A stretch of DNA of 64,000 nucleotides, taken from a virus. The translations under genes were made by a program, and so were the position numbers. The DNA lies in the IMG/VR virus record IMGVR_UViG_3300043410_001892, positions 308,174 to 372,173 of that record; one strand, given 5' to 3'. Numbering within the stretch: position 1 is the stretch's first letter; each line of letters opens with the position of its first letter. Under the pieces are notes generated by a model that saw nothing but the letters and a program-made list of their open reading frames with translations, ran no database searches and was not told the origin of the DNA. Below, piece after piece: positions 16,840 to 62,627 of this stretch.

Positions 16840-17384
16840 AACGTTTTGTTTACCTGTTCCCAGTTTATTATTTTCCATTGATTTTCTAAATACTTTTGTT
16901 TATCTGATTGATAGTCTAGTGCCCATGCATGTTCCCACCAGTCAACTAATAATACAATGTCTTTTTTAATAGCATGGTTAGTTATAGTTTTAATTTGTCC
17001 ATTTTTAGCAAGATAGACCCAACCACTTCCTTGTATGCCCATTGCTACTTTTAAAAACTCTTCTTTGAATTTATCAAAGGTTTTATAATGGGTTTCAATG
17101 AGCTCAAGTGCCTTGCCAACTGGCTTGTTTAGTTTACCAGTTGACTCTTGATATTGCTGGAACAAAATGTTGTGTAAAAATACACCTGCTTCGTTAAACA
17201 CCGGATCACCTTCACCTGCATTATACCGTTTTGCGTATGTTTTAGCAAGATGTTCGTAATGGTAATCTAATGTTTCTTTTGATATAGCAGGACTTAACTC
17301 ATTCATCCCGTATGGCAGGGCATCTATTTTTAAAGATGCCGGTCTACCTTCAGTTATAAATTGTTTAATGAAGCTATAACTCAT
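16836..17384 (-). CDS. Fe/Mn superoxide dismutase family protein
   Basis: 182 aa. Ligands of the family are visible: H in LDYHYEHLAKTYAKRYN, H in FLHNILF, and D plus H in LLVDWWEHAW. The flanking QGSGWVYLAK and ALDYQSDKQKYLENQWKIIN are family signatures. The second-sphere site is odd. FeSOD Gln (in AAQVWNH) is replaced by Gly (NEAGVFLH), and the MnSOD Gln near TxNQD reads TNHAI, giving His. The start at 17384 overlaps the nrdA stop as ATGA. Likely role: protection of the radical enzyme or host from superoxide. Metal preference cannot be read. Confidence 0.9.
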   Translation of the reverse strand: MSYSFIKQFITEGRPASLKIDALPYGMNELSPAISKETLDYHYEHLAKTYAKRYNAGEGDPVFNEAGVFLHNILFQQYQESTGKLNKPVGKALELIETHYKTFDKFKEEFLKVAMGIQGSGWVYLAKNGQIKTITNHAIKKDIVLLVDWWEHAWALDYQSDKQKYLENQWKIINWEQVNKTL

Positions 17385-34478: not shown

Positions 34479-35243
34479 ATGATATCAGATTTAACATTTG
34501 AAGAACAGTCTTTATTTTTTGCAAAACTAAGTTCTCTAGCGTATAACGATTATCAGTTATTCGATGGGTATGGTCTTAGTGGTGTATTTTTAAGTAATGG
34601 CGGATCACAGGCGTATGTACTGTGGAATAATGATGACATGATTATTGTATGTCGAGGAACTCAACCAAATGAACTTAATGACATTATTCACGATCTTGAA
34701 TTTGGATTAGTATCAAGTAGATCAGGATACGGACATGTTCACCGTGGGTTCCAAACCAGTATAGATTTAATATGGGTTGATATGCTTAAATTATTGCAGA
34801 AGTTTGGTTCTAATCGTAAGTTATGGTGTACTGGGCATAGTCTAGGTGCTGCAATGTCAACACTGGTTGCTGCACGATGTGCAAGAACAGATAAATTGCC
34901 ATGTCCAACGTTATTTACTTATGGTAGTCCGCGTGTAGGAAATATAGAATTTATTAGACATATGAATAATTTAGGAGTAGAACATCATAGATGGGTAAAC
35001 AATGCAGATATTGTTACGCGTAATCCAATTTATCCATATAAGCATCATGGAAAATTACACTACTTTGATCATTATGGCGATGTAAGAATTTTTACAAGAT
35101 GGCAAATGATCAAAGATAGAGTAAAAGGTTTTTATAAAGGTTTTAAAAAAGGTAAAGTGAATTTCTTTGTAAATCACTTTATGGATAACTACCTTAAGAA
35201 TTTAGAAAAGTTACAACCTTCCCCAAATGTCCCTGTTGACTGA
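34479..35243 (+). CDS. Class 3 lipase family protein
   Basis: 254 aa alpha/beta-hydrolase. WCTGHSLGAAMSTL holds the nucleophile Ser in G-x-S-x-G, VNNADIVTRNP carries the likely catalytic Asp, and the downstream KHHGKLHYFDH supplies a His. DMIIVCRGTQP is the oxyanion-loop region of lipase_3 proteins. No signal peptide is seen. Possible role: attack on host membrane lipid late in infection. Its 3' end overlaps the convergent nuclease gene by 33 nt. Confidence 0.88.
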   Translation: MISDLTFEEQSLFFAKLSSLAYNDYQLFDGYGLSGVFLSNGGSQAYVLWNNDDMIIVCRGTQPNELNDIIHDLEFGLVSSRSGYGHVHRGFQTSIDLIWVDMLKLLQKFGSNRKLWCTGHSLGAAMSTLVAARCARTDKLPCPTLFTYGSPRVGNIEFIRHMNNLGVEHHRWVNNADIVTRNPIYPYKHHGKLHYFDHYGDVRIFTRWQMIKDRVKGFYKGFKKGKVNFFVNHFMDNYLKNLEKLQPSPNVPVD

Positions 35244-35966
35244 TTGTTCAATTGGTGTGGTACCAAGTGATGGGAAGAAGTTAATATTTACTATATTTTG
35301 TAATTGTTCAACAGTTAAAAGGTATTTAGGTAAATCTTTAGCAGACACTGAGTCATTTGGTATCAAAAACGCAATTGATTGTTTATTAGTTTCGTCGTAG
35401 ATAACCTTCCATAAGTAGTCCGGAATAACTACACCTTTGCCAATAGTTTTAAATGGTTTATCAGGCATGTGATAGGTACCGGATATTACATAAATGTCTC
35501 TTCCATCTTCAGCCCAATTTCGAACTGTGGCTTCCAACTTGTTCCAGATGCCTCTATTGTGAGCTGGAACTTGTGGAACCATGTTTGCGAGAGAAAAGCT
35601 TTCGCTCATCACCTCCTTGCTTTGTGTACTATCACCTGCAGGTACTAAGTGTCCTCTATCATATGGATGTCCTGCATAGTCATGCAGTGTTGAACGAAAT
35701 TGTTCAGGTAACGTTAAGTCCGGATGGAAATCATCTTCACGGTGGAATTCACCGTGTATATCTTCAGGTGATACATGTTCAACTACGTATTCTGCAGTCT
35801 TAGTATCATAACGATAATGAATTGCGTAATTCTGTTTACACATATATTGAGTAGCTGTTAGTTTTGAAACAGGTGCACCATATATTGTAAATTGCGGACA
35901 TTTATCGTCAATGGGGTTTGCTGCTACCGTTAGAGGTAACAGTAGTAATAATAAGAGTTTTTTCAT
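35211..35966 (-). CDS. Secreted DNA/RNA non-specific endonuclease
   Basis: 251 aa. The first 17 residues (MKKLLLLLLLPLTVAANP) are a signal peptide. PYDRGHLVPAGD is the DRGH active site of the beta-beta-alpha-metal (NUC1) family, and NMVPQVPAHNRGIWNKLE supplies the metal-binding Asn. Export suggests degradation of nucleic acid in the periplasm or outside the cell, rather than host genome breakdown. It overlaps the DUF454 gene by 4 nt. Confidence 0.92.
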   Translation of the reverse strand: MKKLLLLLLLPLTVAANPIDDKCPQFTIYGAPVSKLTATQYMCKQNYAIHYRYDTKTAEYVVEHVSPEDIHGEFHREDDFHPDLTLPEQFRSTLHDYAGHPYDRGHLVPAGDSTQSKEVMSESFSLANMVPQVPAHNRGIWNKLEATVRNWAEDGRDIYVISGTYHMPDKPFKTIGKGVVIPDYLWKVIYDETNKQSIAFLIPNDSVSAKDLPKYLLTVEQLQNIVNINFFPSLGTTPIEQSVNRDIWGRL

Positions 35967-36373
35967 TTTAACCAGCCTATTTTTTTATTGTTGATAGTGC
36001 GAAAAATATATTCATCAATGCTTCCGGGGAATCTCCATGCCCATATTGCTACAAGCAACATAACACTTCCTGACCCAAAGATAGCATGTAAATTATGTGA
36101 AGTAAACCATATTGCAACTAATGAACTTGACATTACAAGTAACATCATATATTTCATTTTAGTTGGGAATACTTTCATGTTGACCCAATTATTTAAAAAT
36201 GGACCAAACTGTTTATGATTGTAGATCCATGTATGCATTCTAGGACTTCCTTTACTAAATGCATACGCAGATCCTACTAAAAATGGACTAAACGGTATAC
36301 CTGGAGTAACTACTCCAATATATGCTAGTCCTAATAAAATAAATCCTAAGATTTTCCAAAGTGTTTTTTTCAT
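35963..36373 (-). CDS. DUF454 (YbaN-like) membrane protein
   Basis: 136 aa, matching DUF454: ILGFILLGLAYIGVVTPGIP, F-x-L-x-SAYAFSKGSPR, then two further hydrophobic helices (MMLLVMSSSLVAIWF; SVMLLVAIWAW). Predicted inner-membrane protein of unknown biochemical role. Between algH-like and nuclease genes, with 1- and 4-nt overlaps. Confidence 0.88.
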   Translation of the reverse strand: MKKTLWKILGFILLGLAYIGVVTPGIPFSPFLVGSAYAFSKGSPRMHTWIYNHKQFGPFLNNWVNMKVFPTKMKYMMLLVMSSSLVAIWFTSHNLHAIFGSGSVMLLVAIWAWRFPGSIDEYIFRTINNKKIGWLK

Positions 36374-36927
36374 TAGATCATAAAGTTTTGAGCAAATTCA
36401 AGACTGCATCTTTCTAATGCTTCGTCCCATATATCTTCAAGATCTGTTTCAAGTGCTAATTCTGAATCACAAGTTGATTTACACCAGCTAATGCTAGTAG
36501 TAGTTTGTTTTGAACCATTTATTTGTGATTCTAAATCTTCTAAATTCCATGTACACATACCCAAGAACATTCTCCATTGTTCTGGTTCGTCACCTACTTC
36601 AAATCGTGAAAGTATTTCATCATCTGAGCTTAAACAAAAATGTTCACTAATTTGGAATGTATTTCTACTTCTCCATTCTGTTGAATGTAATAATGAAAAA
36701 CTTGTTTGTCTATCTGGGCCTCCTATATGTAGCATACCTGACACATGTTCAAGGTTTGCACTTAGTCTTGATCCAAATTCGTTGATTGTCATACGACTGT
36801 CCTTATTTAAAATAAGTCCAGTTACGCAATTTGATCGTTCAATGTCAGTGACTAAAATAGTCGATCGTTCCCATAGATGATGTTTTACGCTTGGTGGTGC
36901 TATTAGTAATGTTCCTGGTTTTATCAT
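36373..36927 (-). CDS. YqgE/AlgH family protein (UPF0301)
   Basis: 184 aa. Family marks: GTLLIAPPSV, NCVTGLILNKDSRMTINEF, and HIGGPDRQTSFSLLH. YqgE/AlgH proteins are found in many T4-like marine and freshwater phages, but their role is not known. The C-terminal third is acidic and Cys-containing. Confidence 0.88.
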   Translation of the reverse strand: MIKPGTLLIAPPSVKHHLWERSTILVTDIERSNCVTGLILNKDSRMTINEFGSRLSANLEHVSGMLHIGGPDRQTSFSLLHSTEWRSRNTFQISEHFCLSSDDEILSRFEVGDEPEQWRMFLGMCTWNLEDLESQINGSKQTTTSISWCKSTCDSELALETDLEDIWDEALERCSLEFAQNFMI

Positions 36928-43856: not shown

Positions 43857-44108
43857 ATGAAATTCGAAATAGCTCCTATTGATACACATATACTATGTGG
43901 TTCTTATGAAGAAGCCAAGATGTATCTAATGTTTTTAGAAGTCAACGGCAAACGAAAATGGAGACTTCCTACTCGATACGAACACTGTAAATATTTTGTT
44001 GCAGGAGTTAATCTAAATTATAATGATCATATATGGGATCAACGAGATGACAATACTATTCTGTTAAATGGTAACAAACGCCGTGTAATCCCAGTGAGAG
44101 ATTTATGA
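43857..44108 (+). CDS. DUF1566/Lcl-like mini-protein, array member 1
   Basis: 83 aa. EEAKMYLMFLEVNGKRKWRL gives the helix and core where most members read NGHKDWRLPT; it ends RRVIPVRDL. The core is the start of DUF1566/Lcl C-terminal domains (C-type-lectin-related), and the end is their last strand. The middle of the domain is shortened to about 35 residues. Overlaps member 2 by 4 nt at the junction CCAGTGAGAGATTTATGA. Function unknown. Confidence 0.75.
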   Translation: MKFEIAPIDTHILCGSYEEAKMYLMFLEVNGKRKWRLPTRYEHCKYFVAGVNLNYNDHIWDQRDDNTILLNGNKRRVIPVRDL

Positions 44109-44341
44109 CAGAAGTTTCAGATAAGAGTGTATGGTGTAATGAAATATCGTTAGATGATGCTCGATTATATCTGTTATTCTTAAATCATCGAGGACATAAA
44201 GATTGGCGATTTCCTACAGCATTAGAACGAATGATGCTTCCAGAGTTTTCAAAAACAGGAGGGTATTGGTATTCATTTGACCTTGATAGCACTAACATGG
44301 CATCTAAAAAATATACGCTAGTTCCAGTTCGAGATTGCTAA
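44105..44341 (+). CDS. DUF1566/Lcl-like mini-protein, array member 2
   Basis: 78 aa; DDARLYLLFLNHRGHKDWRF then PTALERMM, ending TLVPVRDC. The variable middle is GGYWYSFDLDSTNMASKK. It is followed after 8 nt by a gene with a virion-type leader, so the array is interrupted here. Confidence 0.75.
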   Translation: MTEVSDKSVWCNEISLDDARLYLLFLNHRGHKDWRFPTALERMMLPEFSKTGGYWYSFDLDSTNMASKKYTLVPVRDC

Positions 44342-45533: not shown

Positions 45534-45767
45534 ATGATTGAAATATCTGACAAAACTGCATGCAGGAAATTAGGATACAATGAAGCATGGCTGTATTGCT
45601 TAACTTTAAACCATAATGGACATAAAGATTGGCGTATGCCAGCTCAGTTTGATCATTATCAAGGTAACGACTGGCCAACTTCAACTTGGGTTGAAGTAAG
45701 TAACCCAAATAGTATTATAGATATCACTGATACTTTTGGAATAGTCCCAGTAAGAACTATTGATTAA
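45534..45767 (+). CDS. DUF1566/Lcl-like mini-protein, array member 3
   Basis: 77 aa; GYNEAWLYCLTLNHNGHKDW then RMPAQFDH, ending FGIVPVRTID. Isolated from other members, with its own GTGAGGAAAT ribosome binding site. Tyr-Cys before the core (LYC) is conserved in most copies. Confidence 0.78.
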   Translation: MIEISDKTACRKLGYNEAWLYCLTLNHNGHKDWRMPAQFDHYQGNDWPTSTWVEVSNPNSIIDITDTFGIVPVRTID

Positions 45768-45833: not shown

Positions 45834-46190
45834 ATGGCAAAAAAAGTTAAGTATAAATCAGCCGAAGATAAACGCCGTGCATTAGAAGCTGAAAAACAAT
45901 GGAAAGAAATGACTAAGACATATGGTCTTAGTGATAAGCCGGCTAATACAAAATCACTTAGAACAATCTCACAGAAAAAAACATTAAGTAATGTTGCACC
46001 AACATATAGAGGTAGTGATAGTAAACCTCCCAGTTTAGTTACAACTACTAAAGGTGGCGGCAGCAAAGTTACAGCTCCAAGATATACCGGTACTTTGATT
46101 AAAGGTATCGCAACGATGCATAAATCAAATGCCGTGCCAATTATTGACCAAGAGCAAGCAACTGAGATTTCACGGATGCGTAGAGGATGA
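45834..46190 (+). CDS. Basic protein of unknown function (118 aa)
   Basis: MAKKVKYKSAEDKRRALEAE then KQWKEMTKTYGLSDKPANTK; strongly basic, low in aromatics, with TYRGSDSKPPSL in the middle and EQATEISRMRRG at the end. It resembles a phage protein group with a YRGSDSKP motif that I have seen before. GAGGTG precedes the ATG. Start base context and the 4-nt overlap with the next array gene suggest co-translation. Confidence 0.75.
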   Translation: MAKKVKYKSAEDKRRALEAEKQWKEMTKTYGLSDKPANTKSLRTISQKKTLSNVAPTYRGSDSKPPSLVTTTKGGGSKVTAPRYTGTLIKGIATMHKSNAVPIIDQEQATEISRMRRG

Positions 46191-46399
46191 CAGAATTTGC
46201 CCCAATGGTCTTCCATCAGCTAACATATAACGATGCATGGATGTACTGTGTTACATTAGAATACGATGGACATAAGGATTGGCGTTTGCCTACTTTTTTA
46301 GAATGGTGTAATAGAAATGATTTACTTGGTTGGTATGAAAACGCGACGGTGCAAGCCGCAACATCAGTGCGAGCTGTTTGCCCAGTGAGGGATATATGA
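46187..46399 (+). CDS. DUF1566/Lcl-like mini-protein, array member 4
   Basis: 70 aa; AWMYCVTLEYDGHKDWRLPT, then WYENATVQAATSVRAVCPVR. Near-identical to the next gene except in residues about 37-60, so a recent tandem duplication. Differences between the two are not restricted to adenines. Confidence 0.78.
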   Translation: MTEFAPMVFHQLTYNDAWMYCVTLEYDGHKDWRLPTFLEWCNRNDLLGWYENATVQAATSVRAVCPVRDI

Positions 46400-46608
46400 T
46401 AGAATTTGCCGCAATGGTCTTCCATCAGCTAACATATAGCGAGGCATGGATGTACTGTGTTACATTAGAATACGATGGACATAAGGATTGGCGCCTGCCA
46501 ACCCTTAACGAATGGAGTAATAGTAGTGAATTACTCGGTTGGTATGAAAACGCGTCGCCGGTTTTCACCCATTCTAAGCGAGCTGTTTGCCCAGTGAGGG
46601 ATATATGA
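46396..46608 (+). CDS. DUF1566/Lcl-like mini-protein, array member 5
   Basis: 70 aa; shares EFAAMVFHQLTYSEAWMYCV almost exactly with member 4 and diverges after DWRLPT (LNEWSNSSELLGWYENASPV). Starts inside the stop of member 4 (ATGA) with GTGAGGGAT as ribosome binding site. Confidence 0.78.
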   Translation: MIEFAAMVFHQLTYSEAWMYCVTLEYDGHKDWRLPTLNEWSNSSELLGWYENASPVFTHSKRAVCPVRDI

Positions 46609-46865
46609 TAGAATTTGGTCCATTATCTAGTACAAAATTTTTGTATCGAGATGCATGGCTATATTGTCACACCTTTAATTATAATGGACATAAGGATTGG
46701 CGTATGATAACAAAAGCAGATGCATTCGTATTAGCGTTGGACGGTATAACCATCTATTCTGGTACTTGGATTGATAAAACTGTTCCTGATCACATGTTAA
46801 GTAATAATATATTTGGCGACTTTACACGAGCCCATGTAATACCAGTGAGGGATAAAAATGATTGA
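46605..46865 (+). CDS. DUF1566/Lcl-like mini-protein, array member 6
   Basis: 86 aa; RDAWLYCHTFNYNGHKDWRM, but ITKADAF replaces the usual PT-x-x-E. Longer variable part (TVPDHMLSNNIFGDFTRAHV), ending IPVRDKND. Divergent member. Confidence 0.75.
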   Translation: MIEFGPLSSTKFLYRDAWLYCHTFNYNGHKDWRMITKADAFVLALDGITIYSGTWIDKTVPDHMLSNNIFGDFTRAHVIPVRDKND

Positions 46866-47079
46866 TTTTGCAGAACTACCAGATTATAGGTTTACTTATA
46901 ATGAAGCATTTCTTTATTGTATAACACTAAGTTACAATGGTCATAAAGACTGGAGAATGCCAACACACGACGAATATATGAATTGCAAAGAGATTGCTAG
47001 TGAATCGTTTGATGACAGTGATGACCCTAAAGATATTAAAGCTAAATATCCCATTGTACCAGTCCGTGATGTGAACTAA
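46858..47079 (+). CDS. DUF1566/Lcl-like mini-protein, array member 7
   Basis: 73 aa; NEAFLYCITLSYNGHKDWRM then PTHDEYMN, acidic middle (DDSDDPKDIKAKYP), ending IVPVRDVN. Overlaps member 6 by 8 nt. Ends a run; a new promoter follows within 10 nt. Confidence 0.78.
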   Translation: MIDFAELPDYRFTYNEAFLYCITLSYNGHKDWRMPTHDEYMNCKEIASESFDDSDDPKDIKAKYPIVPVRDVN

Positions 47080-47235: not shown

Positions 47236-47470
47236 TACGCTATCTGATCAGATGGTTGACAGAGAAACTGCCATCATGTTAGAGTTTATGTGCTGTCACA
47301 ACAATAAAAAAGGTTGGAGATTTCCAACCGATCGAGAATACATCACTCGTAAAGAAATCCCATATGGAGTTTGGTCTAAAGGGTTAGTTGATCGTAATGA
47401 TAAAAAATCAAGATTATGCTTTTTTGTGAGAGATATAAATGACGAAAACATGGAAAGTAGCAGTAGGTGA
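47222..47470 (+). CDS. DUF1566/Lcl-like mini-protein, array member 8
   Basis: 82 aa; ETAIMLEFMCCHNNKKGWRF then PTDREYITRKEI. Diverged core (NNKKGWRFPT), then CFFVRDIND followed by an extra ENMESSSR read past the usual end, which overlaps member 9 by 32 nt. Confidence 0.7.
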   Translation: MIEFSTLSDQMVDRETAIMLEFMCCHNNKKGWRFPTDREYITRKEIPYGVWSKGLVDRNDKKSRLCFFVRDINDENMESSSR

Positions 47471-47741
47471 TTACGTAGTAGAAGTTGCTGATTATCCACG
47501 TAACTATATGTCGTATGATGAAGCAGCTATGCACTGTTTGTTTTTGAAAATCAATAAAGCAGCTGGTTGGCGAATACCAACTGCAGCTGAATATAACAAA
47601 ATTGATGGCATCACTTGTATAATTGATAGATATCGTGATAGTGGGCTATCAGCACCATTTGATCAACGTGATTTTGAGTCAGCAATACGTCGACCATTAT
47701 TACCAGTTAGAACTATCAAAGACCCCGCTGTACACACGTAG
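47439..47741 (+). CDS. DUF1566/Lcl-like mini-protein, array member 9
   Basis: 100 aa, longer N-terminus (MTKTWKVAVGDYVVEVADYP), then DEAAMHCLFLKINKAAGWRI and PTAAEYNK, ending PLLPVRTIKDPAVHT. The last residues DPAVHT are encoded by a copy of the GC-rich element. Confidence 0.7.
   Translation: MTKTWKVAVGDYVVEVADYPRNYMSYDEAAMHCLFLKINKAAGWRIPTAAEYNKIDGITCIIDRYRDSGLSAPFDQRDFESAIRRPLLPVRTIKDPAVHT
47721..47736 (+). repeat. Intercistronic GC-rich element, copy 5
   Basis: GACCCCGCTGTACACA at the 3' end of member 9, whose stop lies 3 nt further (CGTAGG). Confidence 0.7.
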
Positions 47742-49394: not shown

Positions 49395-49608
49395 TATACA
49401 CGATCTAGGCATATCAACTGATTACACCACTGCATGGTTGATATGCCTAACCATGGAACACAACGGACATAAAGATTGGCGATTGCCAACATGGTATGAC
49501 TATATAAATAGTGCAGAACTACATGACTGCTGGTATGAAGATGATTTTTACACCGTATACATAGGAAAGAACGTATTTGCAGTTCGTAGCAAAGAGGCCC
49601 CACTGTAA
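49387..49608 (+). CDS. DUF1566/Lcl-like mini-protein, array member 10
   Basis: 73 aa; TTAWLICLTMEHNGHKDWRL then PTWYDYINSAEL. The usual end PVRD is replaced by FAVRSKEAPL, where the last codons and stop are a variant GC-rich element (GGCCCCACTGTAA). Start at 49387 overlaps the 359-aa gene. Confidence 0.75.
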   Translation: MIDIHDLGISTDYTTAWLICLTMEHNGHKDWRLPTWYDYINSAELHDCWYEDDFYTVYIGKNVFAVRSKEAPL

Positions 49609-49826
49609 TGGAAAAAATAGAAATTGCTCAAACTACTCGAAAATCCTTAACTTATGCTGAAGCACAGATGTATTGTTTTGTGTATGAAGAGAATAATATT
49701 CGTGGTTGGAGATTACCAACTGAAGATGAGTATGTAAACCACAATGAAATATGGGGTTGGGTTCAAGATGATGAACGTCAAGACGAGTACGGTACCTTGA
49801 GAGTTACTCCAGTGAGAGATTTATGA
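49608..49826 (+). CDS. DUF1566/Lcl-like mini-protein, array member 11
   Basis: 72 aa; AEAQMYCFVYEENNIRGWRL then PTEDEYVNHNEI, ending LRVTPVRDL. Diverged core (NNIRGWRLPT). Shares its first base with the preceding stop (TAATG). Confidence 0.76.
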   Translation: MEKIEIAQTTRKSLTYAEAQMYCFVYEENNIRGWRLPTEDEYVNHNEIWGWVQDDERQDEYGTLRVTPVRDL

Positions 49827-50056
49827 TTGAGTTTGCCCCTCAATCACCAACCAATATGTCATTTGATGAAGCATTTCTCTATTGTTTAACACTTAACTAC
49901 AAAGGACATAAGGATTGGTCTATACCTTATAGACGAGAGAAACGCTCATACATGATAGGTACTTGGTCTATTGATGATATAAAACTGATAGAGTTTTACT
50001 ATTCATCTGATACAAAGACATCTGTATTTCCTATTAGAGGTTATTATGAATCATGA
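49823..50056 (+). CDS. DUF1566/Lcl-like mini-protein, array member 12
   Basis: 77 aa; DEAFLYCLTLNYKGHKDWSI, with P-Y-RRE instead of PT-x-x-E. The tail reads VFPIRGYYES rather than PVRD, showing drift at the C-terminus. Confidence 0.74.
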   Translation: MIEFAPQSPTNMSFDEAFLYCLTLNYKGHKDWSIPYRREKRSYMIGTWSIDDIKLIEFYYSSDTKTSVFPIRGYYES

Positions 50057-50273
50057 ATACGGTATAAGATCGCCCGATCGCTTAACTTTTGACGAAGCAT
50101 TTCTGTATTGCCTTACACATAATTTTAATGGACATAAAGATTGGTATATGCCAACTTTTACTATGTGGGTATTTGATGATGTTATTACTGGCTGGCATAG
50201 TTCAGCTAAACTGCAACGTGATATTAGTTATGACATATCACGAGTTATACCAGTGAGAGATATAGATGATTGA
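50046..50273 (+). CDS. DUF1566/Lcl-like mini-protein, array member 13
   Basis: 75 aa; DEAFLYCLTHNFNGHKDWYM then PTFTMWVF, ending RVIPVRDIDD. Starts MNHEYGIRS instead of MIE-x-A-P and overlaps member 12 by 11 nt. Confidence 0.76.
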   Translation: MNHEYGIRSPDRLTFDEAFLYCLTHNFNGHKDWYMPTFTMWVFDDVITGWHSSAKLQRDISYDISRVIPVRDIDD

Positions 50274-50481
50274 AATTGCATATAAAACTATAAAAGACAT
50301 GGATTACGATACTGCATGGCTTTATTGTTTGGTATATGAGAAAGACGGGCATAAAGATTGGCGATTGCCTAGTCGTGACGAATACTTTAATACTGACGGA
50401 ATACATCTACATACTTGGTTTGAAAACAGAGAAGATGACACTAAATGGTGTTGCCAACCAGTGAGAGGTATAGATGATTGA
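50266..50481 (+). CDS. DUF1566/Lcl-like mini-protein, array member 14
   Basis: 71 aa; DTAWLYCLVYEKDGHKDWRL then PSRDEYFN, aromatic-rich middle (HLHTWFENREDDTKWCC), ending QPVRGIDD. First of four consecutive genes joined by the junction CCAGTGAGAGATATAGATG or a one-base variant. Confidence 0.78.
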   Translation: MIEIAYKTIKDMDYDTAWLYCLVYEKDGHKDWRLPSRDEYFNTDGIHLHTWFENREDDTKWCCQPVRGIDD

Positions 50482-50686
50482 ATTTGCTATACGATCTCAA
50501 GAAGAAATGGTTTACGACCAAGCATTTCTGTATTGTCTAACACTCGAGTATAATGGACATAAAGATTGGCGATTGCCTACAGGAATTGAATATTCTATTA
50601 CGGATGCGCTATCATTTTGCTGGTTTGAAGAAAGAAAAACCGGCGAAAGATGGGTATGTCAACCAGTGAGAGATATAGATGATTGA
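50474..50686 (+). CDS. DUF1566/Lcl-like mini-protein, array member 15
   Basis: 70 aa, close to the family consensus: DQAFLYCLTLEYNGHKDWRL, PTGIEY, FCWFEERKTGERWVC, QPVRDIDD. Overlap of 8 nt on both sides. Confidence 0.8.
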   Translation: MIEFAIRSQEEMVYDQAFLYCLTLEYNGHKDWRLPTGIEYSITDALSFCWFEERKTGERWVCQPVRDIDD

Positions 50687-50891
50687 AAAAGGACCAGCAG
50701 CTGGAAAAAAACTTCATTATAGAGAAGCGTGGATGTATTGTCTTACACTCTCTTATAACGGACACAAAGATTGGCGTATGCCAAGTTACTTTGAAACTAA
50801 TTACGGGTGGAATGAACGAGATGTAATGAACCCTAATTTAGAATCGCCCTATCAATATTCAATTATACCAGTGAGAGATATAGATGATTGA
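50679..50891 (+). CDS. DUF1566/Lcl-like mini-protein, array member 16
   Basis: 70 aa; REAWMYCLTLSYNGHKDWRM then PSYFETNYGWN, ending SIIPVRDIDD. N-terminus MIEKGPAAGKKLHY differs from the usual MIE(F/Y)AP. Confidence 0.78.
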   Translation: MIEKGPAAGKKLHYREAWMYCLTLSYNGHKDWRMPSYFETNYGWNERDVMNPNLESPYQYSIIPVRDIDD

Positions 50892-51090
50892 ATACGCCCC
50901 ACCAACAACAGAATGTGTAGACTATGACACTGCTTGGCTGTATTGCGTTACCCTAGCACACGATAACAAATACGACTGGCGAATGCCAACACATAAAGAA
51001 TATGAGACTTCTCCATTTATATTAGGTTGGTTTGTAGATAGACCACAGACTGAAAATCTCTGGACTTGCCAACCAGTGCGTGATTGTTAA
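50884..51090 (+). CDS. DUF1566/Lcl-like mini-protein, array member 17
   Basis: 68 aa; DTAWLYCVTLAHDNKYDWRM, PTHKEYE, LGWFVDRPQTENLWTC, ending QPVRDC. Core Gly-His-Lys replaced by Asn-Lys-Tyr. Last of a run of eight; a promoter follows. Confidence 0.77.
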   Translation: MIEYAPPTTECVDYDTAWLYCVTLAHDNKYDWRMPTHKEYETSPFILGWFVDRPQTENLWTCQPVRDC

Positions 51091-51458: not shown

Positions 51459-51662
51459 ATGGCAATTGAACACGCGCCACGTTCTGAACATAAGATGAGT
51501 TACGAACAAGCAGAGATATACGCATTTATGTGTAACCATGACGGTAAGCGCGGTTGGCGCTTACCGACCTTTAACGAGTTTGTGGATCCTAATACATGGT
51601 ATAAAGATGCTGAGATTACTAAAAGAAAGTGGTTTGTTGCACCAGTGAGGGATATAAAATGA
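51459..51662 (+). CDS. DUF1566/Lcl-like mini-protein, array member 18
   Basis: 67 aa; EQAEIYAFMCNHDGKRGWRL then PTFNEFVDPNTWYKDA, ending FVAPVRDIK. Core reads DGKRGWRLPT. Confidence 0.77.
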   Translation: MAIEHAPRSEHKMSYEQAEIYAFMCNHDGKRGWRLPTFNEFVDPNTWYKDAEITKRKWFVAPVRDIK

Positions 51663-51991
51663 ACTTTGAGATATCACCAAAAACGATGGAGATACACGCT
51701 ACGTGGGATCAAGCAGTTATTTACTGTTTTGGTTTAGGAGATGGTTGGCGATTACCAACGTTGGCGGAATTACAAGAAATAACCACAATCTCTAAAAATT
51801 CCCTTAATCCTACAACAAGCGTACTAACACATGTCCCATATCATGATATGGCAAATAAATGGCATTGGTCGTCTGACGAATATGAGTATAATAACAATAA
51901 AGTCTTGTGTTTCAATTATTGGACCAATACAATGTGGGACTGCGATAAAAACAACTGTTATATTATTAGACCAGTGAGGGATATAAAATGA
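51659..51991 (+). CDS. Longer DUF1566/Lcl-like protein, array member 19
   Basis: 110 aa, the most complete domain in the array: WDQAVIYCFGLGDGWRLPTL and AELQEI, then KWHWSSDEYEYNNNKVLCFN and YWTNTMWD, ending YIIRPVRDIK. The WHWSSDEY and VRPVR-type strands are the second half of DUF1566/Lcl domains. This copy links the shorter members to the family. Confidence 0.82.
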   Translation: MNFEISPKTMEIHATWDQAVIYCFGLGDGWRLPTLAELQEITTISKNSLNPTTSVLTHVPYHDMANKWHWSSDEYEYNNNKVLCFNYWTNTMWDCDKNNCYIIRPVRDIK

Positions 51992-52194
51992 AAGCTAAAG
52001 AACTAATTAAATTATTATCACAACATCCTAACGCTGATGTGGTTATAAGTGACTATAATGGTTGGGAAACACCATTTTATGATGTCGATGCTATTGAATT
52101 CCATGAAAATAGTTATCCTGTTGGTGAAAATATTAGAAAAAGTGCCAAGCCTAATAATGGTTTGGTTACTTTCACATTGGGTAAGAGACATTAA
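51988..52194 (+). CDS. Small unknown protein (68 aa)
   Basis: MKAKELIKLLSQHPNADVVI, then SDYNGWETPFYDVDAIEF. The first half matches small phage/bacterial proteins that start with a K-ELI-x-x-L-x-x-P-x-A-x-V pattern. Its 3' end runs, in another frame, over a VRDIK-encoding junction that starts the next gene. Confidence 0.7.
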   Translation: MKAKELIKLLSQHPNADVVISDYNGWETPFYDVDAIEFHENSYPVGENIRKSAKPNNGLVTFTLGKRH

Positions 52195-52195
52195 A

Positions 52196-52591
52196 ATGAT
52201 TGAATATGCACCAATCGCTATTACCAAACAACACTATGACAACAGATCCTCAGTTTATTCGGATAAATTGTTTGTGGTATGGATGCCAGATAATACCAGA
52301 AGAAAAACAATCGAACTAGCCATTAAATCAGTAAGTTTATCTTGGGCTAATTTAGCACATGATGATTTGTCAGAGTTAGATTTATCAGGTCTAGATCTTT
52401 CTTATGCTGATTTATCGTTTGCAAATTTGTCAAATGCTAATCTAACCAATACGAATTTATTTCAAGCAAGTTTACGTGGAGCAGATCTTACAGGTGCATT
52501 ACTTGACAATACCAACCTACAATATGTGGATCTGTCCTATGCAACTTTAGATCATACCAACTTACACAACTGCAACTTCCATAAATTATGA
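52196..52591 (+). CDS. Pentapeptide-repeat protein with array-type N-terminus
   Basis: 131 aa. Residues 1-8 (MIEYAPIA) are the array leader. Residues about 50-128 are pentapeptide repeats of the type A(D/N)LS: LDLSGLDLSYADLSFANLSN then TNLFQASLRGADLTGALLDN. These form a right-handed quadrilateral helix, and some relatives mimic DNA. A fusion of the array start signal to an unrelated domain. Confidence 0.85.
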   Translation: MIEYAPIAITKQHYDNRSSVYSDKLFVVWMPDNTRRKTIELAIKSVSLSWANLAHDDLSELDLSGLDLSYADLSFANLSNANLTNTNLFQASLRGADLTGALLDNTNLQYVDLSYATLDHTNLHNCNFHKL

Positions 52592-52902
52592 ATATTGAAC
52601 TAGCCCCTTACAAATATTGGCTGATTGACACTAATTTTGACACAGCTAAAATGCACTGCTTTTTTCTTAACATTGACAATAAGCTTGGTTGGCGTTTACC
52701 AACTAATCAAGAAGCCTGTGATCTTGTTAATTTTGTTGAATCGTTAGATACTGATTTCCCAAAAGAATTACAAGAGTTTTCAGAGTATTGGTTTGATGAC
52801 GAGAGTTATGGTTTTTGGACTTTTGAAGATGAAGATCTTCATTCAAATGCAGATTTAGGCGAATTATTTACAGTAATCCCCGTGAGAGATAAAGATGCTT
52901 GA
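52588..52902 (+). CDS. Longer DUF1566/Lcl-like protein, array member 20
   Basis: 104 aa; DTAKMHCFFLNIDNKLGWRL then PTNQEACDLV, a long acidic insert (FDDESYGFWTFEDEDLHSNA), ending FTVIPVRDKDA. Core reads DNKLGWRLPT. Confidence 0.75.
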   Translation: MNIELAPYKYWLIDTNFDTAKMHCFFLNIDNKLGWRLPTNQEACDLVNFVESLDTDFPKELQEFSEYWFDDESYGFWTFEDEDLHSNADLGELFTVIPVRDKDA

Positions 52903-53104
52903 ACATGCACCAAGAATAGAAAAAGATATGTGTTATGATACCGCATGGCTTCACTGCCTAACACTTAACTATAATGGCCATAAAGATTGGCGATTACCAA
53001 CTCAAAGAGAATATGATAAATCTAGTATAACAATAAGTTGGTTTGAAGATAGATTACCAACACCATTACAATGGTACTGTCAACCTGTACGCGATATAAT
53101 ATAA
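52895..53104 (+). CDS. DUF1566/Lcl-like mini-protein, array member 21
   Basis: 69 aa, consensus-like: DTAWLHCLTLNYNGHKDWRL, PTQREYDK, SWFEDRLPTPLQWYC, ending QPVRDII. Last member before a new promoter. Confidence 0.79.
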   Translation: MLEHAPRIEKDMCYDTAWLHCLTLNYNGHKDWRLPTQREYDKSSITISWFEDRLPTPLQWYCQPVRDII

Positions 53105-54696: not shown

Positions 54697-54875
54697 GTGG
54701 ATTAGGATATATTGCAGCTGAACTTGAACAGTGTTGTGAACTCTGTGGCAAAATTGAAGAATGTCGTCCGTATGGTCCTAATGGTGAACAAATCTGTTTT
54801 GACTGTGGTATGAAAGATGAAGAAACTACTAAACAACAGATGGCAAAGTATATCTTTGGAGTAGACAGTGATTAA
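54693..54875 (+). CDS. Small zinc-finger protein (60 aa)
   Basis: CCELCGKIEECRPYGPNGEQ then ICFDCGMKDEET: two C-x-x-C pairs typical of a zinc ribbon. It could be a regulator or an adaptor to another protein. Start overlaps the WGR-like gene as ATGA. Confidence 0.72.
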   Translation: MSGLGYIAAELEQCCELCGKIEECRPYGPNGEQICFDCGMKDEETTKQQMAKYIFGVDSD

Positions 54876-55107
54876 AGATAATCCGTTGCTCGATTATGCT
54901 CCACCGTTAAATAAACCTGTAGATGAAGATACCGCATTCATGTATTGTATAACACTAAGTTACAATGGTTATAAAGACTGGAGATTCCCAACAAGACCTG
55001 AATTTGGAGATACGGGTGATGTATGGTTTGACGGTGAGAACTTTTCTAATGCATCTGGCTATTGGAGATGGCGAGTTCAACCAGTAAGATCTAAAGAGGA
55101 TATATGA
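54868..55107 (+). CDS. DUF1566/Lcl-like mini-protein, array member 22
   Basis: 79 aa from a GTG start; DTAFMYCITLSYNGYKDWRF then PTRPEFGD, middle with WFDGENFSNASGYWRWR, ending VQPVRSKEDI. It sits between two WGR-like paralogues, apart from the rest of its family. Confidence 0.73.
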   Translation: MIKDNPLLDYAPPLNKPVDEDTAFMYCITLSYNGYKDWRFPTRPEFGDTGDVWFDGENFSNASGYWRWRVQPVRSKEDI

Positions 55108-55989: not shown

Positions 55990-56018
55990 TTGCAATGCCA
56001 AACAAACTTTGCTATAAT
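55990..56018 (+). promoter_or_regulatory. Promoter (TTGCAA-N17-TATAAT)
   Basis: Perfect -10, TTTGC before it (extended -10 character), and ATATTTTTT after it. Confidence 0.85.
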
Positions 56019-57038: not shown

Positions 57039-57069
57039 AAGGTGCTTTGGTAACAGAGCACCTTTTTTT
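57039..57069 (+). terminator. Rho-independent terminator
   Basis: AAGGTGCT / AGCACCTT stem with a 10-nt loop followed by seven Ts; the next gene's ATG lies just beyond. Confidence 0.85.
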
Positions 57070-57079
57070 ATGAGATTAT

Positions 57080-57274
57080 ATGATAGAATTTTCATTTGAC
57101 GAACAAAATGGTGTTATTCATCGTACTAATGGTCCAGCTTGGATAAATCCAGGATATGGACATACTCCACTTGGATACTATTGGCATTGGCGGCTATTTG
57201 GCGTTAGACATCGTTATTATGGACCGCAAAATCGGGATGGTGATTGGTGGTTACATGGGAAGAGAGTAAAATGA
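57080..57274 (+). CDS. HR-GPA repeat mini-protein, array member 1
   Basis: 64 aa with two copies of an about 24-aa repeat: VIHRTNGPAW...W-x-WRLFG and VRHRYYGPQN...WWLHGKRVK. Repeats of this HR-x-x-GPA...W-x-x-G kind occur as long tandem chains in some phage and giant-virus proteins. Here each gene holds one and a half to two units. Starts MIEFSF after GAGATTAT, right behind a terminator. Confidence 0.75.
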   Translation: MIEFSFDEQNGVIHRTNGPAWINPGYGHTPLGYYWHWRLFGVRHRYYGPQNRDGDWWLHGKRVK

Positions 57275-57474
57275 TTGAAATACGAAACACTGCTAACAAT
57301 GGATTTGTATATCTTTTAGATGGTAATTGGCATCGATCTAATGGCCCTGCTAGGGTATGGGCAAATGGAGAATGGGGATGGTATTTAACTGATCGCCAAC
57401 ATCGCTATTATGGTCCGCAAGCAAACAATGAGTGGTGGATACATGGGGAGTGTATAAAATATGGATTCGACTAA
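57271..57474 (+). CDS. HR-GPA repeat mini-protein, array member 2
   Basis: 67 aa; WHRSNGPARVWANGEWGWYL then HRYYGPQANNEWWIHGECIK. Starts inside the preceding stop (ATGA), with GGGAAGAGAG as ribosome binding site. Confidence 0.76.
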   Translation: MIEIRNTANNGFVYLLDGNWHRSNGPARVWANGEWGWYLTDRQHRYYGPQANNEWWIHGECIKYGFD

Positions 57475-57682
57475 GTCACAACGATATTTATACAGTTATT
57501 TAACACCTAATGATACAGTTGAGTACAAATTGCATACTGGTGGGTTTCATCGATGTGATGGACCTGCACTAACACGATATGAAAGATGGGCATGGTTTTT
57601 ATATGATCAACATCATCGGTATTATGGTCCGCAGCACTCACATTATCCTAATTGGATGATTCATGGGAAGAGGGTTAAATGA
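57461..57682 (+). CDS. HR-GPA repeat mini-protein, array member 3
   Basis: 73 aa; longer N-terminus (MDSTKSQRYLYSYLTPNDTV), FHRCDGPALTRYERWAWFLY, then HRYYGPQHSHYPNWMIHGKR. Most similar to member 11, not to its neighbours. Confidence 0.76.
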   Translation: MDSTKSQRYLYSYLTPNDTVEYKLHTGGFHRCDGPALTRYERWAWFLYDQHHRYYGPQHSHYPNWMIHGKRVK

Positions 57683-57879
57683 TTAAACAAACTAAAAACG
57701 ATCATAGTATTAGGTTTACTAAAGATGGTAAGTTGCATTGTGCAAATGGTCCAACAGTATCATGGAATGATGGTTCATGGTCCTGGTATTTAGATGGCTA
57801 TCCTCATCGTTATTATGGACCACAAAAATCTTATGTGTTATATCGTAACTGGTATATTCACGGGATTGAAATTAAATGA
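57679..57879 (+). CDS. HR-GPA repeat mini-protein, array member 4
   Basis: 66 aa; LHCANGPTVSWNDGSWSWYL then HRYYGPQKSYVLYRNWYIHG. First repeat has Cys and Thr (HCANGPT) where most have Arg and Ala. Confidence 0.76.
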   Translation: MIKQTKNDHSIRFTKDGKLHCANGPTVSWNDGSWSWYLDGYPHRYYGPQKSYVLYRNWYIHGIEIK

Positions 57880-58076
57880 TTATAAGAATTGAAGAAGAAC
57901 ATAGTATATGCTATCGATTAGAAAATGGTGTGTGCCATCGACCTAATGGACCTGCTGTAGAGTTTAAGGCTGACAAGACAGGCTATTGGTTCTTGTTTGG
58001 TAAACGACATAGATACTATGGTCCGGCATCTCATGCTAATAATTGGTTTTGGATACATGACAAGAGAGTTAAATGA
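57876..58076 (+). CDS. HR-GPA repeat mini-protein, array member 5
   Basis: 66 aa; CHRPNGPAVEFKADKTGYWF then LFGKRHRYYGPASHANNWFW. Similar to member 6 in the second repeat. 4-nt overlaps on both sides. Confidence 0.76.
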   Translation: MIIRIEEEHSICYRLENGVCHRPNGPAVEFKADKTGYWFLFGKRHRYYGPASHANNWFWIHDKRVK

Positions 58077-58267
58077 TTACAAAAACTAAGGAAGGCAGTA
58101 TTGTTGTATACCGATTAAATGACATGTGGCATCGATCTAGTGGTCCTGCTTATGAGTTTCCTAATGGTAAAGGCTTTTGGGCATTATTTGGTAAACGACA
58201 TAGATACTATGGTCCGGCATCTCCCTATAGTAACATATATTATCTACATGACAGGTTGGTTAAATGA
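58073..58267 (+). CDS. HR-GPA repeat mini-protein, array member 6
   Basis: 64 aa; WHRSSGPAYEFPNGKGFWAL then FGKRHRYYGPASPYSNIYYL. Gene pair with member 5 by local similarity. Confidence 0.76.
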   Translation: MITKTKEGSIVVYRLNDMWHRSSGPAYEFPNGKGFWALFGKRHRYYGPASPYSNIYYLHDRLVK

Positions 58268-58491
58268 TAGAAAGATTTGAAGACATTGAATGTGTTCGTT
58301 ACCGATTAAATGGTGTGCCTCATCGAACTAATGGACCTGCGTTTGAATGGCTAAATGGTGACTGGAGTTGGGCATTGCATGGGAAAATACATCGTTATTA
58401 CGGACTTGCAGGTAGCAATGCAATGATAGATATTTTTCATGAATCGCGCAAAATAAAGTTTTGGGTATTGCACGGTGAGAGAGTTAGATGA
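58264..58491 (+). CDS. HR-GPA repeat mini-protein, array member 7
   Basis: 75 aa; PHRTNGPAFEWLNGDWSWAL then HGKIHRYYGLAGSNAMIDIF. Pro of GP is lost in the second repeat (YGLA). Recent duplicate of member 8. Confidence 0.76.
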   Translation: MIERFEDIECVRYRLNGVPHRTNGPAFEWLNGDWSWALHGKIHRYYGLAGSNAMIDIFHESRKIKFWVLHGERVR

Positions 58492-58712
58492 TTGATCGAA
58501 TTGAGGAAAACGATCGTGTTTGTTATCGATTAAATGGGGTGCCTCACCGTCCTAATGGACCTGCGTTTGAATGGCCAAATGGTGACTGGAGTTGGTCGTT
58601 GTATGGGAAAATACATCGCTATTACGGACCTGCGGCTTGCAATGAAACGATAGATAAGTATCATGGCGGCAATTCAAAGTTTTGGGTATTGCACGGTGAG
58701 GGAGTTAGATGA
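58488..58712 (+). CDS. HR-GPA repeat mini-protein, array member 8
   Basis: 74 aa; PHRPNGPAFEWPNGDWSWSL then YGKIHRYYGPAACNETIDKY. Differs from member 7 by scattered substitutions and a short length change near KFWVLHGE. Confidence 0.76.
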   Translation: MIDRIEENDRVCYRLNGVPHRPNGPAFEWPNGDWSWSLYGKIHRYYGPAACNETIDKYHGGNSKFWVLHGEGVR

Positions 58713-58948
58713 TTGAAGAAAGACAGTGTGTAGCATCAGTTGTTGGTACATACACAGAATATGTAAAAGACAATAAACCTCATCGACCCAATGGCCCGGC
58801 AAGGATCTATAATGATGGTGATGCTTACTGGTGGTTATATGGGAATAGACATAGATACTATGGACCTCAAACATCTAACCAAGAACGATCAATTTGGCGA
58901 GTACACGACCGGGAAATGAAATATGAAGTCCACTGGATTGAAGAATAA
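58709..58948 (+). CDS. HR-GPA repeat mini-protein, array member 9
   Basis: 79 aa, the longest member; PHRPNGPARIYNDGDAYWWL then YGNRHRYYGPQTSNQERSIW. Extra C-terminal tail KYEVHWIEE overlaps the next gene by 26 nt. Closest to member 13. Confidence 0.76.
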   Translation: MIEERQCVASVVGTYTEYVKDNKPHRPNGPARIYNDGDAYWWLYGNRHRYYGPQTSNQERSIWRVHDREMKYEVHWIEE

Positions 58949-59117
58949 TAAGTATTATGAGCATCGAGAAGATGACAAGTTACACTGCACTAATGGTCCG
59001 GCATGTGCTGCCGGACCAAACAGTTGGTTATGGTGTTTAAATGATCAACCTCATAGATATTACGGTCCTTACCATTCTGACGGATGTTGGTGTCTTCACG
59101 GGAAAAGAGTTAAATGA
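58923..59117 (+). CDS. HR-GPA repeat mini-protein, array member 10
   Basis: 64 aa; LHCTNGPACAAGPNSWLWCL then NDQPHRYYGPYHSDGCWCLH. Starts MKSTGLKNN rather than MI-x-x; start lies within member 9. Confidence 0.74.
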   Translation: MKSTGLKNNKYYEHREDDKLHCTNGPACAAGPNSWLWCLNDQPHRYYGPYHSDGCWCLHGKRVK

Positions 59118-59323
59118 CTAAGCCACACCGATATGTAAGCACTTATTGTGAAACTGATGATACAGTTATTTATAGAGTGCTCAATGATTATCATCGATGT
59201 GATGGACCTGCACTAATACAATATGACAAATGGGGATGGTTTTTGTTTAACAACTGGCACAGGTATTATGGAGAGGCTCGTAGTGCCGGTGATTGGTATA
59301 TTCACGGGAAATTAGTTAAATGA
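59114..59323 (+). CDS. HR-GPA repeat mini-protein, array member 11
   Basis: 69 aa; YHRCDGPALIQYDKWGWFLF then NNWHRYYGEARSAGDWYIHG. Pro of the second GP is replaced by Glu. Shares its N-terminal layout (Y-x-x-T-x-DTV) with member 3. Confidence 0.76.
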   Translation: MTKPHRYVSTYCETDDTVIYRVLNDYHRCDGPALIQYDKWGWFLFNNWHRYYGEARSAGDWYIHGKLVK

Positions 59324-59511
59324 TAAAAAAAACAGATGGCGGATATTATTATGAATATCGATCAAATGGTAAGAGACATCAAGTCAATGGTCCTGCGTTA
59401 GTCTTTGTTACTGGTGAAAAATATTGGTTTTTATATGATCAATGGCATAGATATTATGGCTATCAATCTAACAAGAATCAATGGTGGTTACATGGGGAAA
59501 AAATTAAATGA
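59320..59511 (+). CDS. HR-GPA repeat mini-protein, array member 12
   Basis: 63 aa; RHQVNGPALVFVTGEKYWFL then YDQWHRYYGYQSNKNQWWLH. First Arg replaced by Gln (HQ), second GP by GY. Confidence 0.76.
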   Translation: MIKKTDGGYYYEYRSNGKRHQVNGPALVFVTGEKYWFLYDQWHRYYGYQSNKNQWWLHGEKIK

Positions 59512-59720
59512 TTGAACAATTTGAGTACCATAGTTGCACAGTATATTTAAAGGACGGCGAACCGCATCGTCCTAATGGACCAGCAAGGATATACCGTGAT
59601 GGATCTAAGTATTGGTGGTTATATGGGATTCGCCATCGATACTATGGACCACAATGTAAGGATATTTATGGAACAATTTGGAGAATACATGGCTTACTGA
59701 TAAAACATGAACACAAATAA
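59508..59720 (+). CDS. HR-GPA repeat mini-protein, array member 13
   Basis: 70 aa; PHRPNGPARIYRDGSKYWWL then YGIRHRYYGPQCKDIYGTIW. Near-copy of member 9 in the repeats. Overlaps member 14 by 14 nt. Confidence 0.76.
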   Translation: MIEQFEYHSCTVYLKDGEPHRPNGPARIYRDGSKYWWLYGIRHRYYGPQCKDIYGTIWRIHGLLIKHEHK

Positions 59721-59871
59721 CGATCTAACACATAAGACTAATGGCCCCGCTGTAACGTGTAGCAACGGTTATTGGTCATGGAGATTATTTAACAATTATC
59801 ACAGGTATTACGGTCCGGTAAATAGTAGAGGACGATGGTGTATTCATAACAAGTGGGTTAAATGGTTGTAA
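59707..59871 (+). CDS. HR-GPA repeat mini-protein, array member 14 (short)
   Basis: 54 aa; HKTNGPAVTCSNGYWSWRLF then NNYHRYYGPVNSRGRWCIHN. The shortest copy, lacking most of the N-terminus, and last of the array. The NGPAV codons read AATGGCCCCGCTGT, which equals the core of the intercistronic GC-rich element. Confidence 0.7.
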   Translation: MNTNNDLTHKTNGPAVTCSNGYWSWRLFNNYHRYYGPVNSRGRWCIHNKWVKWL

Positions 59872-59877
59872 AAATCA

Positions 59878-59907
59878 TTGTACATTTCTGTGATAATATG
59901 CTATAAT
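59878..59907 (+). promoter_or_regulatory. Promoter (TTGTAC-N18-TATAAT)
   Basis: Strong -10 with TGC before it and ATATTTTTTT after it; the -35 is weak and spacing is 18. Confidence 0.65.
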
Positions 59908-61786: not shown

Positions 61787-61814
61787 CAGCCACACTAAGT
61801 TGAAGAGGTATACG

Positions 61815-62627
61815 ATGGACACACTTGACCATTACGTGTTGCTAGGATTTCCTGTGCATCACAGTGAATCACCACGTATTCATGCGTTATTTGCAGAACA
61901 AACCGGGCAAAATATGAGTTATCTTGCGCAAGAAGTTAGGCCAGAAAATTTTATCGTTGCCGTCAATGAATTTTTTGAAAAAGGCGGCAAAGGCCTAAAC
62001 TGTACGCTACCACTCAAAGAATTGGCATGGGAATTTGCCACGAATAAAACGCCACGCGCCCAAGCGGCAAAAGCAGTCAATACACTGGTTTTGCAAGAAA
62101 ATGGGCAAATTTTAGGTGACAATACCGACGGCATTGGTTTAGTAACAGATTTGACAAACAATCACGGTGTCAATCTTGAAAATAAACGATTGCTTATTTT
62201 GGGAGCGGGTGGTGCTACACGCGGAATTTTATTGCCGCTACTTGATGAAAAGCCCAAAAGTATCACTATTGCTAATCGTACCGTTGAAAAAGCCATGCAA
62301 CTCGCTAATGAGTTTCAACAACACATTCATGCGTGTAGATTTGAGGCGTTAGAAAATCATCAATTCGATGTTATTTTAAACGCCACATCGGCCAGTTTGA
62401 GTGATGATTTGCCACCGCTACCAGAAAATATATTGGCTGAAAACGGCATTTGTTACGATTTAGCGTATAGCAATCAACCGACTGCGTTTGTGCGTTGGGG
62501 GATTGAGCAAAACGCCCATAAAAGCGTTGACGGCTTAGGCATGCTTGTTGAGCAAGCGGCAGAGGCTTTTTTTCTCTGGCGTGGCGTTCGTCCTAGCACA
62601 CAATTTTTATTACATGACATGAAGTAA
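61815..62627 (+). CDS. aroE: Shikimate dehydrogenase
   Basis: 270 aa, full AroE length. LLGFPVHHSESPRIH (substrate Ser pair), NCTLPLKELA (catalytic Lys), NTDGIG (catalytic Asp), LLILGAGGATRGIL (NADP loop), ANRTVEKA (phosphate site) and GLGMLVEQAAEAFFLW. It reduces 3-dehydroshikimate to shikimate. The ATG at 61815 follows AGAGG. Codons with GCG, CGC and GGC are far more common than in neighbouring genes, suggesting recent transfer from a bacterial host. Confidence 0.96.
   Translation: MDTLDHYVLLGFPVHHSESPRIHALFAEQTGQNMSYLAQEVRPENFIVAVNEFFEKGGKGLNCTLPLKELAWEFATNKTPRAQAAKAVNTLVLQENGQILGDNTDGIGLVTDLTNNHGVNLENKRLLILGAGGATRGILLPLLDEKPKSITIANRTVEKAMQLANEFQQHIHACRFEALENHQFDVILNATSASLSDDLPPLPENILAENGICYDLAYSNQPTAFVRWGIEQNAHKSVDGLGMLVEQAAEAFFLWRGVRPSTQFLLHDMK

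Follow-up and report, generated by a model that had tools for sequence, protein, structure and literature searches.

Overlapping mini-genes for short HR-GPA-type repeat proteins in a large phage genome: sequence evidence for coupled translation and a possible role as small binders

Introduction

Why should a phage keep a family of small repeat proteins as a chain of separate, overlapping genes? The question is raised by 14 mini-genes at 57080-59871 of a 64,000-nucleotide stretch of viral DNA (hereafter the window), which forms the end (308174-372173) of the 372,173-bp IMG/VR virus record IMGVR_UViG_3300043410_001892. Each encodes a short protein with HRYYG and NGPA-type repeats, and we refer to these as HR mini-genes. 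At the DNA level, the terminase region of the record distantly resembles those of Pseudomonas phage MIJ3 and Serratia phage BF; the search returned 17 records, and coverage stayed below 80% in every one. From these relatives we read the virus as a T4-like jumbo phage. Our preferred answer, to which we give a probability of roughly 45%, is that 57 MORN-type mini-genes in this record, together with a second, Lcl_C-like family, may supply diversified small binding proteins from coupled chains.

The mini-gene array

When the open reading frames (ORFs) of the window are read, 14 consecutive HRYYG ORFs of 54-79 residues with ATG starts are found on the plus strand, and all 13 junctions between them overlap. 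Mini-gene 1 (64 residues) lies at 57080-57274. Ten junctions overlap by the four nucleotides (nt) ATGA, and these lead into mini-gene 2 (67 residues, 57271-57474, starting at the ATG at 57271 and not at a TTG further upstream), 4 (66 residues, 57679-57879), 5 (66 residues, 57876-58076), 6 (64 residues, 58073-58267), 7 (75 residues, 58264-58491), 8 (74 residues, 58488-58712, the member whose structure was predicted), 9 (79 residues, 58709-58948), 11 (69 residues, 59114-59323), 12 (63 residues, 59320-59511) and 13 (70 residues, 59508-59720). Two junctions overlap by 14 nt, leading into mini-gene 3 (73 residues, 57461-57682) and into the last of the array, mini-gene 14 (54 residues, 59707-59871), and one overlaps by 26 nt, leading into mini-gene 10 (64 residues, 58923-59117).

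The first-pass annotation, made from the sequence of the window, had described this region as tandem overlapping mini-genes holding HRYYG and NGPA-type repeats, and this description stands. HRYYG is present in every member and extends to HRYYGP in 11, the exceptions being members 7 (HRYYGL), 11 (HRYYGE) and 12 (HRYYGY), while NGPA occurs exactly in 10, with DGPA in members 3 and 11, NGPT in 4 and SGPA in 6. Each member has the same order of units, H-x-x-x-G-P followed by W-x-L-x-x-x-x-H-R-Y-Y-G and then a C-terminal half-unit. This third half-unit, approximately W-x-[IL]-H-[GDN]-x-x-[IV]-[KR], had been overlooked.

Overlapping junctions and the sequence evidence for translational coupling

In the zone that carries the mini-genes, the 4-nt ATGA overlap is found at 31 of 49 junctions between HR mini-genes, compared with 4 of 62 between neighbours belonging to neither family (Fisher p 8e-11); the genes of the comparison set were called by greedy selection of ORFs of 50 residues or more. 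The C-terminal codons of the upstream gene at these coupled ends favour a Shine-Dalgarno (SD) sequence for the next gene: pairing with the anti-SD sequence at the 31 ends reaches -4.68 kcal/mol, against -2.99 kcal/mol for random synonymous codons (p 4e-7). Elsewhere this preference is absent: neither 277 windows inside the genes, nor 17 ends whose follower begins at a different spacing, nor 9 ends that have no follower show it. It persists once the upstream genes are pruned to at most 45% pairwise identity (p 0.001, n=15), and every one of the 10 ATGA junctions of the window array does better than its own null mean. The features of termination-reinitiation, a 4-nt stop-start overlap and an SD sequence inside the upstream gene, are thus both present, and the cited part of PMC6728339 describes this process at such overlaps as experimentally shown in bacteria and archaea. 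Because the ATGA overlaps are accompanied by a junction-specific preference for SD codons, translational coupling of the HR mini-genes appears well supported on sequence grounds. Two earlier proposals are strengthened: that every repeat unit forms a separate gene with a start signal of its own, by the ATG starts, ATGA overlaps and SD codons, and that these genes are translationally coupled, by the junction counts and the full and pruned codon tests. If so, one segment of protein would be constrained twice, as part of a fold and as a ribosome-binding site.

These junctions also bear on a more mundane explanation, in which errors of sequencing or assembly have cut a single long repeat gene into separate ORFs. 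The concern is a natural one, since assemblers struggle with repeats and contig G001 terminates inside member 3, but we consider it very improbable. The junctions are of one design, an SD sequence with ATGA, and at 20 of the 31 ATGA junctions the frame of the downstream gene is closed by a stop codon immediately 5' of its ATG, which rules out a single gene with a simple frameshift. The separate-gene form is also found in a related phage contig, and a second contig, which may be from the same sample, agrees at every position over 6394 nt, as far as the middle of member 3. The longest identical stretch shared by any two copies is 41 nt, which is short for collapse. We therefore reject the frameshifted single gene, which the first-pass annotation had named as the finding that would overturn its account.

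Family size and growth

A profile built from the 14 members returned 57 matches in the record, of which 53 have E values under 1e-9, so the array is not a chance pattern. All 57 are on the plus strand. The window accounts for 14 of them and the region at 19.8-43.6 kb for the other 43; 56 are free of internal stops while one contains a stop. Collecting ORFs by the presence of HRYYG, which the profile search did not require, also gave 57 in the same places. Together these genes make up 11.6 kb in about a dozen clusters of 1 to 14 members, and their products have 50-89 residues, or about 2.5 units. Because HRYYG is identical in all 57 and yet is written with 40 different 15-mers, selection on this motif acts at the level of the protein. 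The kept core can be written W...HRYYG...W..H, and it is the N-terminus and the loop after HRYYGP that vary.

The similarity among the 14 had been described as interleaved and taken to imply block duplication. The pairs named are indeed mutual best matches (3 and 11 at 51% identity, 9 and 13 at 62%, 7 and 8 at 75%), but block duplication does not hold up: the pairs are separated by 8, 4 and 1 genes, and none of the lags of 1, 2, 3, 4 and 8 stands out from random order (p 0.28, 0.95, 0.84, 0.20 and 0.33). When all 57 are considered, neighbours are more similar than in shuffled order (0 of 2000 shuffles reach the observed value). Identity is also uneven along the genes: the proteins of members 5 and 6 are only 54% identical, yet a stretch of 37 nt around HRYYGP is the same in both genes, a patchiness to be expected of partial recombination. 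We prefer growth of the family by tandem duplication with partial recombination as the account of these patterns.

If the family grows in this way, it may be that the growth is mostly non-adaptive, an accordion of tandem duplication in a recombination-prone accessory zone in which most copies have little function. Several two-gene families in the same zone are tandem duplicates of other genes, the Lcl_C-like family has expanded in parallel, and remnants consisting of partial units lie between clusters, all of which would fit. We nevertheless regard this as unlikely, given that HRYYG is intact in every copy despite its varied codons, that nearly all profile matches lack an internal stop and that SD codons are favoured solely at coupled junctions.

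Six HR matches (five with HRYYG and one with NRYYG) and one Lcl match were found in a related phage contig, 42,960 bp long, and in both phages a three-gene mini-gene cluster follows the same lipoprotein-like gene (50% identity). The expansion is probably specific to the lineage of the present phage, the relative being represented by a fragment only. Viral scans that used a sub-alignment or different consensus peptides gave nothing; the member-rich contig L097 came up only through a DNA pattern, and further relatives therefore probably exist. Among bacterial genomes, one scan restricted to exact 8-residue peptides gave 61 pattern matches and no confirmed HRYYG gene.

Relatives and predicted fold

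The mini-proteins are related to longer, fused HR-GPA proteins, with a profile-profile probability of 98.7 (E 2e-16). Both share an H-x-x-x-G unit every 23 residues, seen at H20 and H43 in member 8 and at H25, H48, H71 and H94 in a fused relative. One scan of IMG/VR gave 544 pattern sites, of which 528 proved on confirmation to be HR-GPA loci, and the best 80 of these 528 were compared. At least two HR-GPA ORFs stand in a row at 37 of the 80, and one locus has 15. The expectation that such repeats are usually strung together in one long protein is thus only partly borne out, since long HR-GPA proteins exist but tandem small HR-GPA genes are also common. Once redundancy was removed, 54 loci with 180 ORFs remained, with a median of 4 units per ORF, and an HRYYG ORF was found in none of the 54. 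HR-GPA proteins are abundant in environmental phages. In the very small form carried by this phage, the HRYYG core is invariant and the logic of expression is clear, which makes single members suitable for expression and for tests of their targets.

Structure prediction for a fused relative gave a confident model (predicted local distance difference test score, pLDDT, 91.6), whose best PDB matches are MORN1 proteins (Foldseek E 2.8e-4). In VIA-align it scores Z 7.3 against MORN4, among other open-sheet proteins, although common arrangements also reach such Z values. The MORN unit is 23 residues long, equal to the HR-GPA unit. The fold of the longer relatives appears, as modelled, to be MORN-like. 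The Pfam MORN models have no match in the fused relatives (4 and 15 scanned), which match other families only; one of these proteins exceeds the cut-off for DUF6745 (PF20530; 30.1 vs 27 bits), a family with no match among the 10 of 14 mini-proteins scanned. A search for sequence relatives of known structure gave none that was significant.

We found no named functional family for HR-GPA repeat proteins and no paper naming these repeats or arrays: the main text of PMC6102473, on Atu_ph07, is without 'repeat', 'paralog' or 'duplicat', and PMC6892783 is without 'tandem' or 'repeat'. The portion of PMC9238414 relied on here reports MORN repeats to be 37 times more frequent in long reads than in assemblies, and arrays of the present kind are, on that basis, probably under-counted.

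Possible function

In our preferred reading, a short MORN-type repeat family would have expanded to 57 genes in tandem chains, alongside an Lcl_C/DUF1566-like family. In most genes the codons of the C-terminal half-unit would provide the ribosome-binding site and the start overlap for the next gene, and a ribosome ending one gene would restart on the next by termination-reinitiation. Because each gene carries its own start, its own stop and the restart signal of its follower, a copy could be duplicated, lost or partly recombined without harm to its neighbours; the fixed core is retained, and variation falls in the N-terminus and in the loop that follows HRYYGP. The products would be small binders made during infection, each perhaps directed at a different host or rival target, much as in a polyimmunity locus; we infer their expression and timing, and also their binding role, the last by analogy with such loci. 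This reading is preferred because the number and place of the genes vary (57 here, compared with 6 in the related contig) while the core remains fixed. If one considers the cited passages of PMC3482391, polyimmunity loci are likewise tandem and on one strand, with short gaps and a variable number of genes.

Several observations weigh against this reading. The ratio of nonsynonymous to synonymous substitution rates (dN/dS) lies between 0.15 and 0.99 in 11 chosen pairs and is never above 1, so that active diversification is unsupported. The SD codon test includes related junctions, and pruning at 42% identity leaves n=9, with p 0.01 in a Wilcoxon test and p 0.09 in a sign test. The model of member 8 is middling (pLDDT 77), with no PDB match at E of 0.001 or below; its matches are viral HR-GPA proteins and, further down the ranking, giant-virus proteins with MORN repeats, and it reaches only Z 2-4 against MORN structures, among unrelated rows. 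Ten of the 14 mini-proteins were scanned against Pfam and matched no family, MORN and MORN_2 included. None of the eight proteins given to PADLOC had a match, so that a known defence family was set aside, and matches in PHROGs were weak. The same scans (Pfam with 10 of 14 mini-proteins, PADLOC with 8 proteins) gave no toxin-immunity family among the members, although unlisted families may exist.

A last point of this kind is that short overlaps are, according to the part of PMC10666635 cited, enriched elsewhere among subunits of heteromeric complexes, which favours the main rival, a hetero-oligomer kept in balance by coupling. In this rival, which takes up the assembly in equal amounts proposed by the first-pass annotation, the coupled mini-proteins would be subunits that join by their edges to build a longer sheet or ring of MORN-like type, with coupling matching their amounts. 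The median of 4 units in the fused relatives would allow the mini-proteins to be a split version of one sheet, and MORN-like open sheets may in principle stack end to end. The distribution of 57 genes over clusters so unequal in size is a poor fit to a fixed stoichiometry, however, and the relative's fragment has only six members. The order is also not conserved, the best-matching pairs within the 14 lying at such varied distances. Taken together, we find the hetero-oligomer doubtful.

The Lcl_C-like family

The HR mini-genes are accompanied by another expanded group. When 221 called genes from the window and from 14-46 kb were compared all against all by BLAST clustering, one further large family emerged, with 28 members, 20 of them in the window. 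A profile of 15 of these gave 50 matches in the record, 22 in the window and 26 at 2.4-43.8 kb; of the remaining two, one is an opposite-strand outlier at 291 kb, while the other contains a stop and probably arose by chance. At 8.9-9.3 kb, a single ORF accounts for two of the matches. Of six proteins given to Pfam, one exceeded the cut-off for Lcl_C (PF07603) and the other five were weak, and across the record PF07603 had 31 matches, two of them over the cut-off. Where the families share operons, both junctions from an HR to an Lcl gene overlap by 4 nt and neither of the two in the opposite order does so.

In the window, clustering and profile place Lcl_C-like mini-genes on the plus strand as a pair at 43857-44341 (43857-44108 and 44105-44341) and singly at 45534-45767. 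Clustering adds four in succession at 46187-47079 (overlaps of 4, 4 and 8 nt), one at 47439-47741 and seven in succession at 49608-51090 (overlaps of 4-11 nt). Two more lie at 51459-51991, the second of which, scanned as 51629-51991, is over the Pfam Lcl_C cut-off, two at 52588-53104 (clustering and Pfam scan) and one at 54940-55107, for which a longer reading, 54868-55107, was scanned against Pfam. A pentapeptide-repeat protein (52049-52591, plus strand, E 3.7e-18) lies inside this array.

In the part of PMC6642488 drawn on here, DUF1566, with a C-type-lectin fold, is the commonest Pfam domain among the targets of diversity-generating retroelements. A retroelement of that type acting on the Lcl_C-like genes was considered and rejected, there being no RVT_1 match in the record, which may be incomplete. 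A bolder proposal, about which we are sceptical, is that over 100 mini-genes or mini-domains (57 MORN-like and 48 Lcl_C-like) form a phage cassette system for making and keeping diversity. If this were true, the conserved tail would be at once fold, ribosome-binding site of the next gene and recombination joint, and the virus could grow, shrink and shuffle a recognition repertoire with the operon intact.

Surroundings of the array and other genes

A hairpin with a T run resembling an intrinsic terminator lies at 57039-57070 on the plus strand (stem 57039-57064, 11 pairs), ending about 10 nt 5' of mini-gene 1, and it was also recovered by a stricter scan. That scan found six such sites on the plus strand of 96 kb, two of them within 23 nt upstream of an HR gene, numbers too few to interpret. 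Directly 3' of the array is a promoter-like site, TGTACA-17-TATAAT, with a TGCTATAAT core (59879-59907, plus strand). Many genes of the phage are preceded by a promoter-like element in which a TTGCAAT-type box is combined with the TGCTATAAT core and a following T run; it was seen at window positions 56010, 56254, 59899 and 60692 and also at L012 and L013. Two HR clusters have in common a long leader, nearly palindromic, whose arms carry GCTGTTTAAGCG and GCTAAACAGC; it sits just 5' of the G000 genes at 20456 (L012) and 34331 (L013).

Near the array is an AroE-like shikimate dehydrogenase (61800-62627, plus strand; Pfam Shikimate_dh_N E 9.5e-21). Elsewhere in the window, an iron/manganese superoxide dismutase (16836-17402, minus strand; Sod_Fe_C E 3.9e-23) is flanked by genes which we take to resemble ribonucleotide reductase subunits. 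A class 3 lipase (34479-35243, plus strand, E 4.8e-25) adjoins a DNA/RNA non-specific endonuclease (35211-35966, minus strand, E 1.7e-47), and an AlgH-like DUF179 protein, unusual in a phage, is encoded at 36373-36927 (minus strand, E 1.6e-22).

Comparison with known systems

The closest known relatives of the mini-proteins are the fused HR-GPA (HRxDGPA) proteins, which occur for example in Agrobacterium phage Atu_ph07 and Celeribacter phage P12053L and partly match DUF6745. They have the same 23-residue unit and also stand in tandem runs of up to 15 genes, but the 4-nt overlap is found in only 12 of 127 of their neighbour pairs, against 31 of 49 in this phage. MORN repeat proteins (MORN1, MORN4 and junctophilin) are the best fold matches of the fused form, whereas the mini-proteins have no Pfam MORN match and comprise only some 2.5 units. 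With polyimmunity loci, as portrayed in the cited passages of PMC3482391, the array shares tandem paralogues on one strand, short gaps and a variable number of genes; here the array is borne by a phage, and this is a likeness only, membership of that class being unsupported. In copy number, the nearest comparison is with Bacillus phage G, where the cited part of PMC7824862 describes an expansion of zinc ribbons to about 35 copies as unprecedented. The protein family is a different one and the present phage carries 57 copies, but in each case a single small protein has undergone lineage-specific growth in a jumbo phage.

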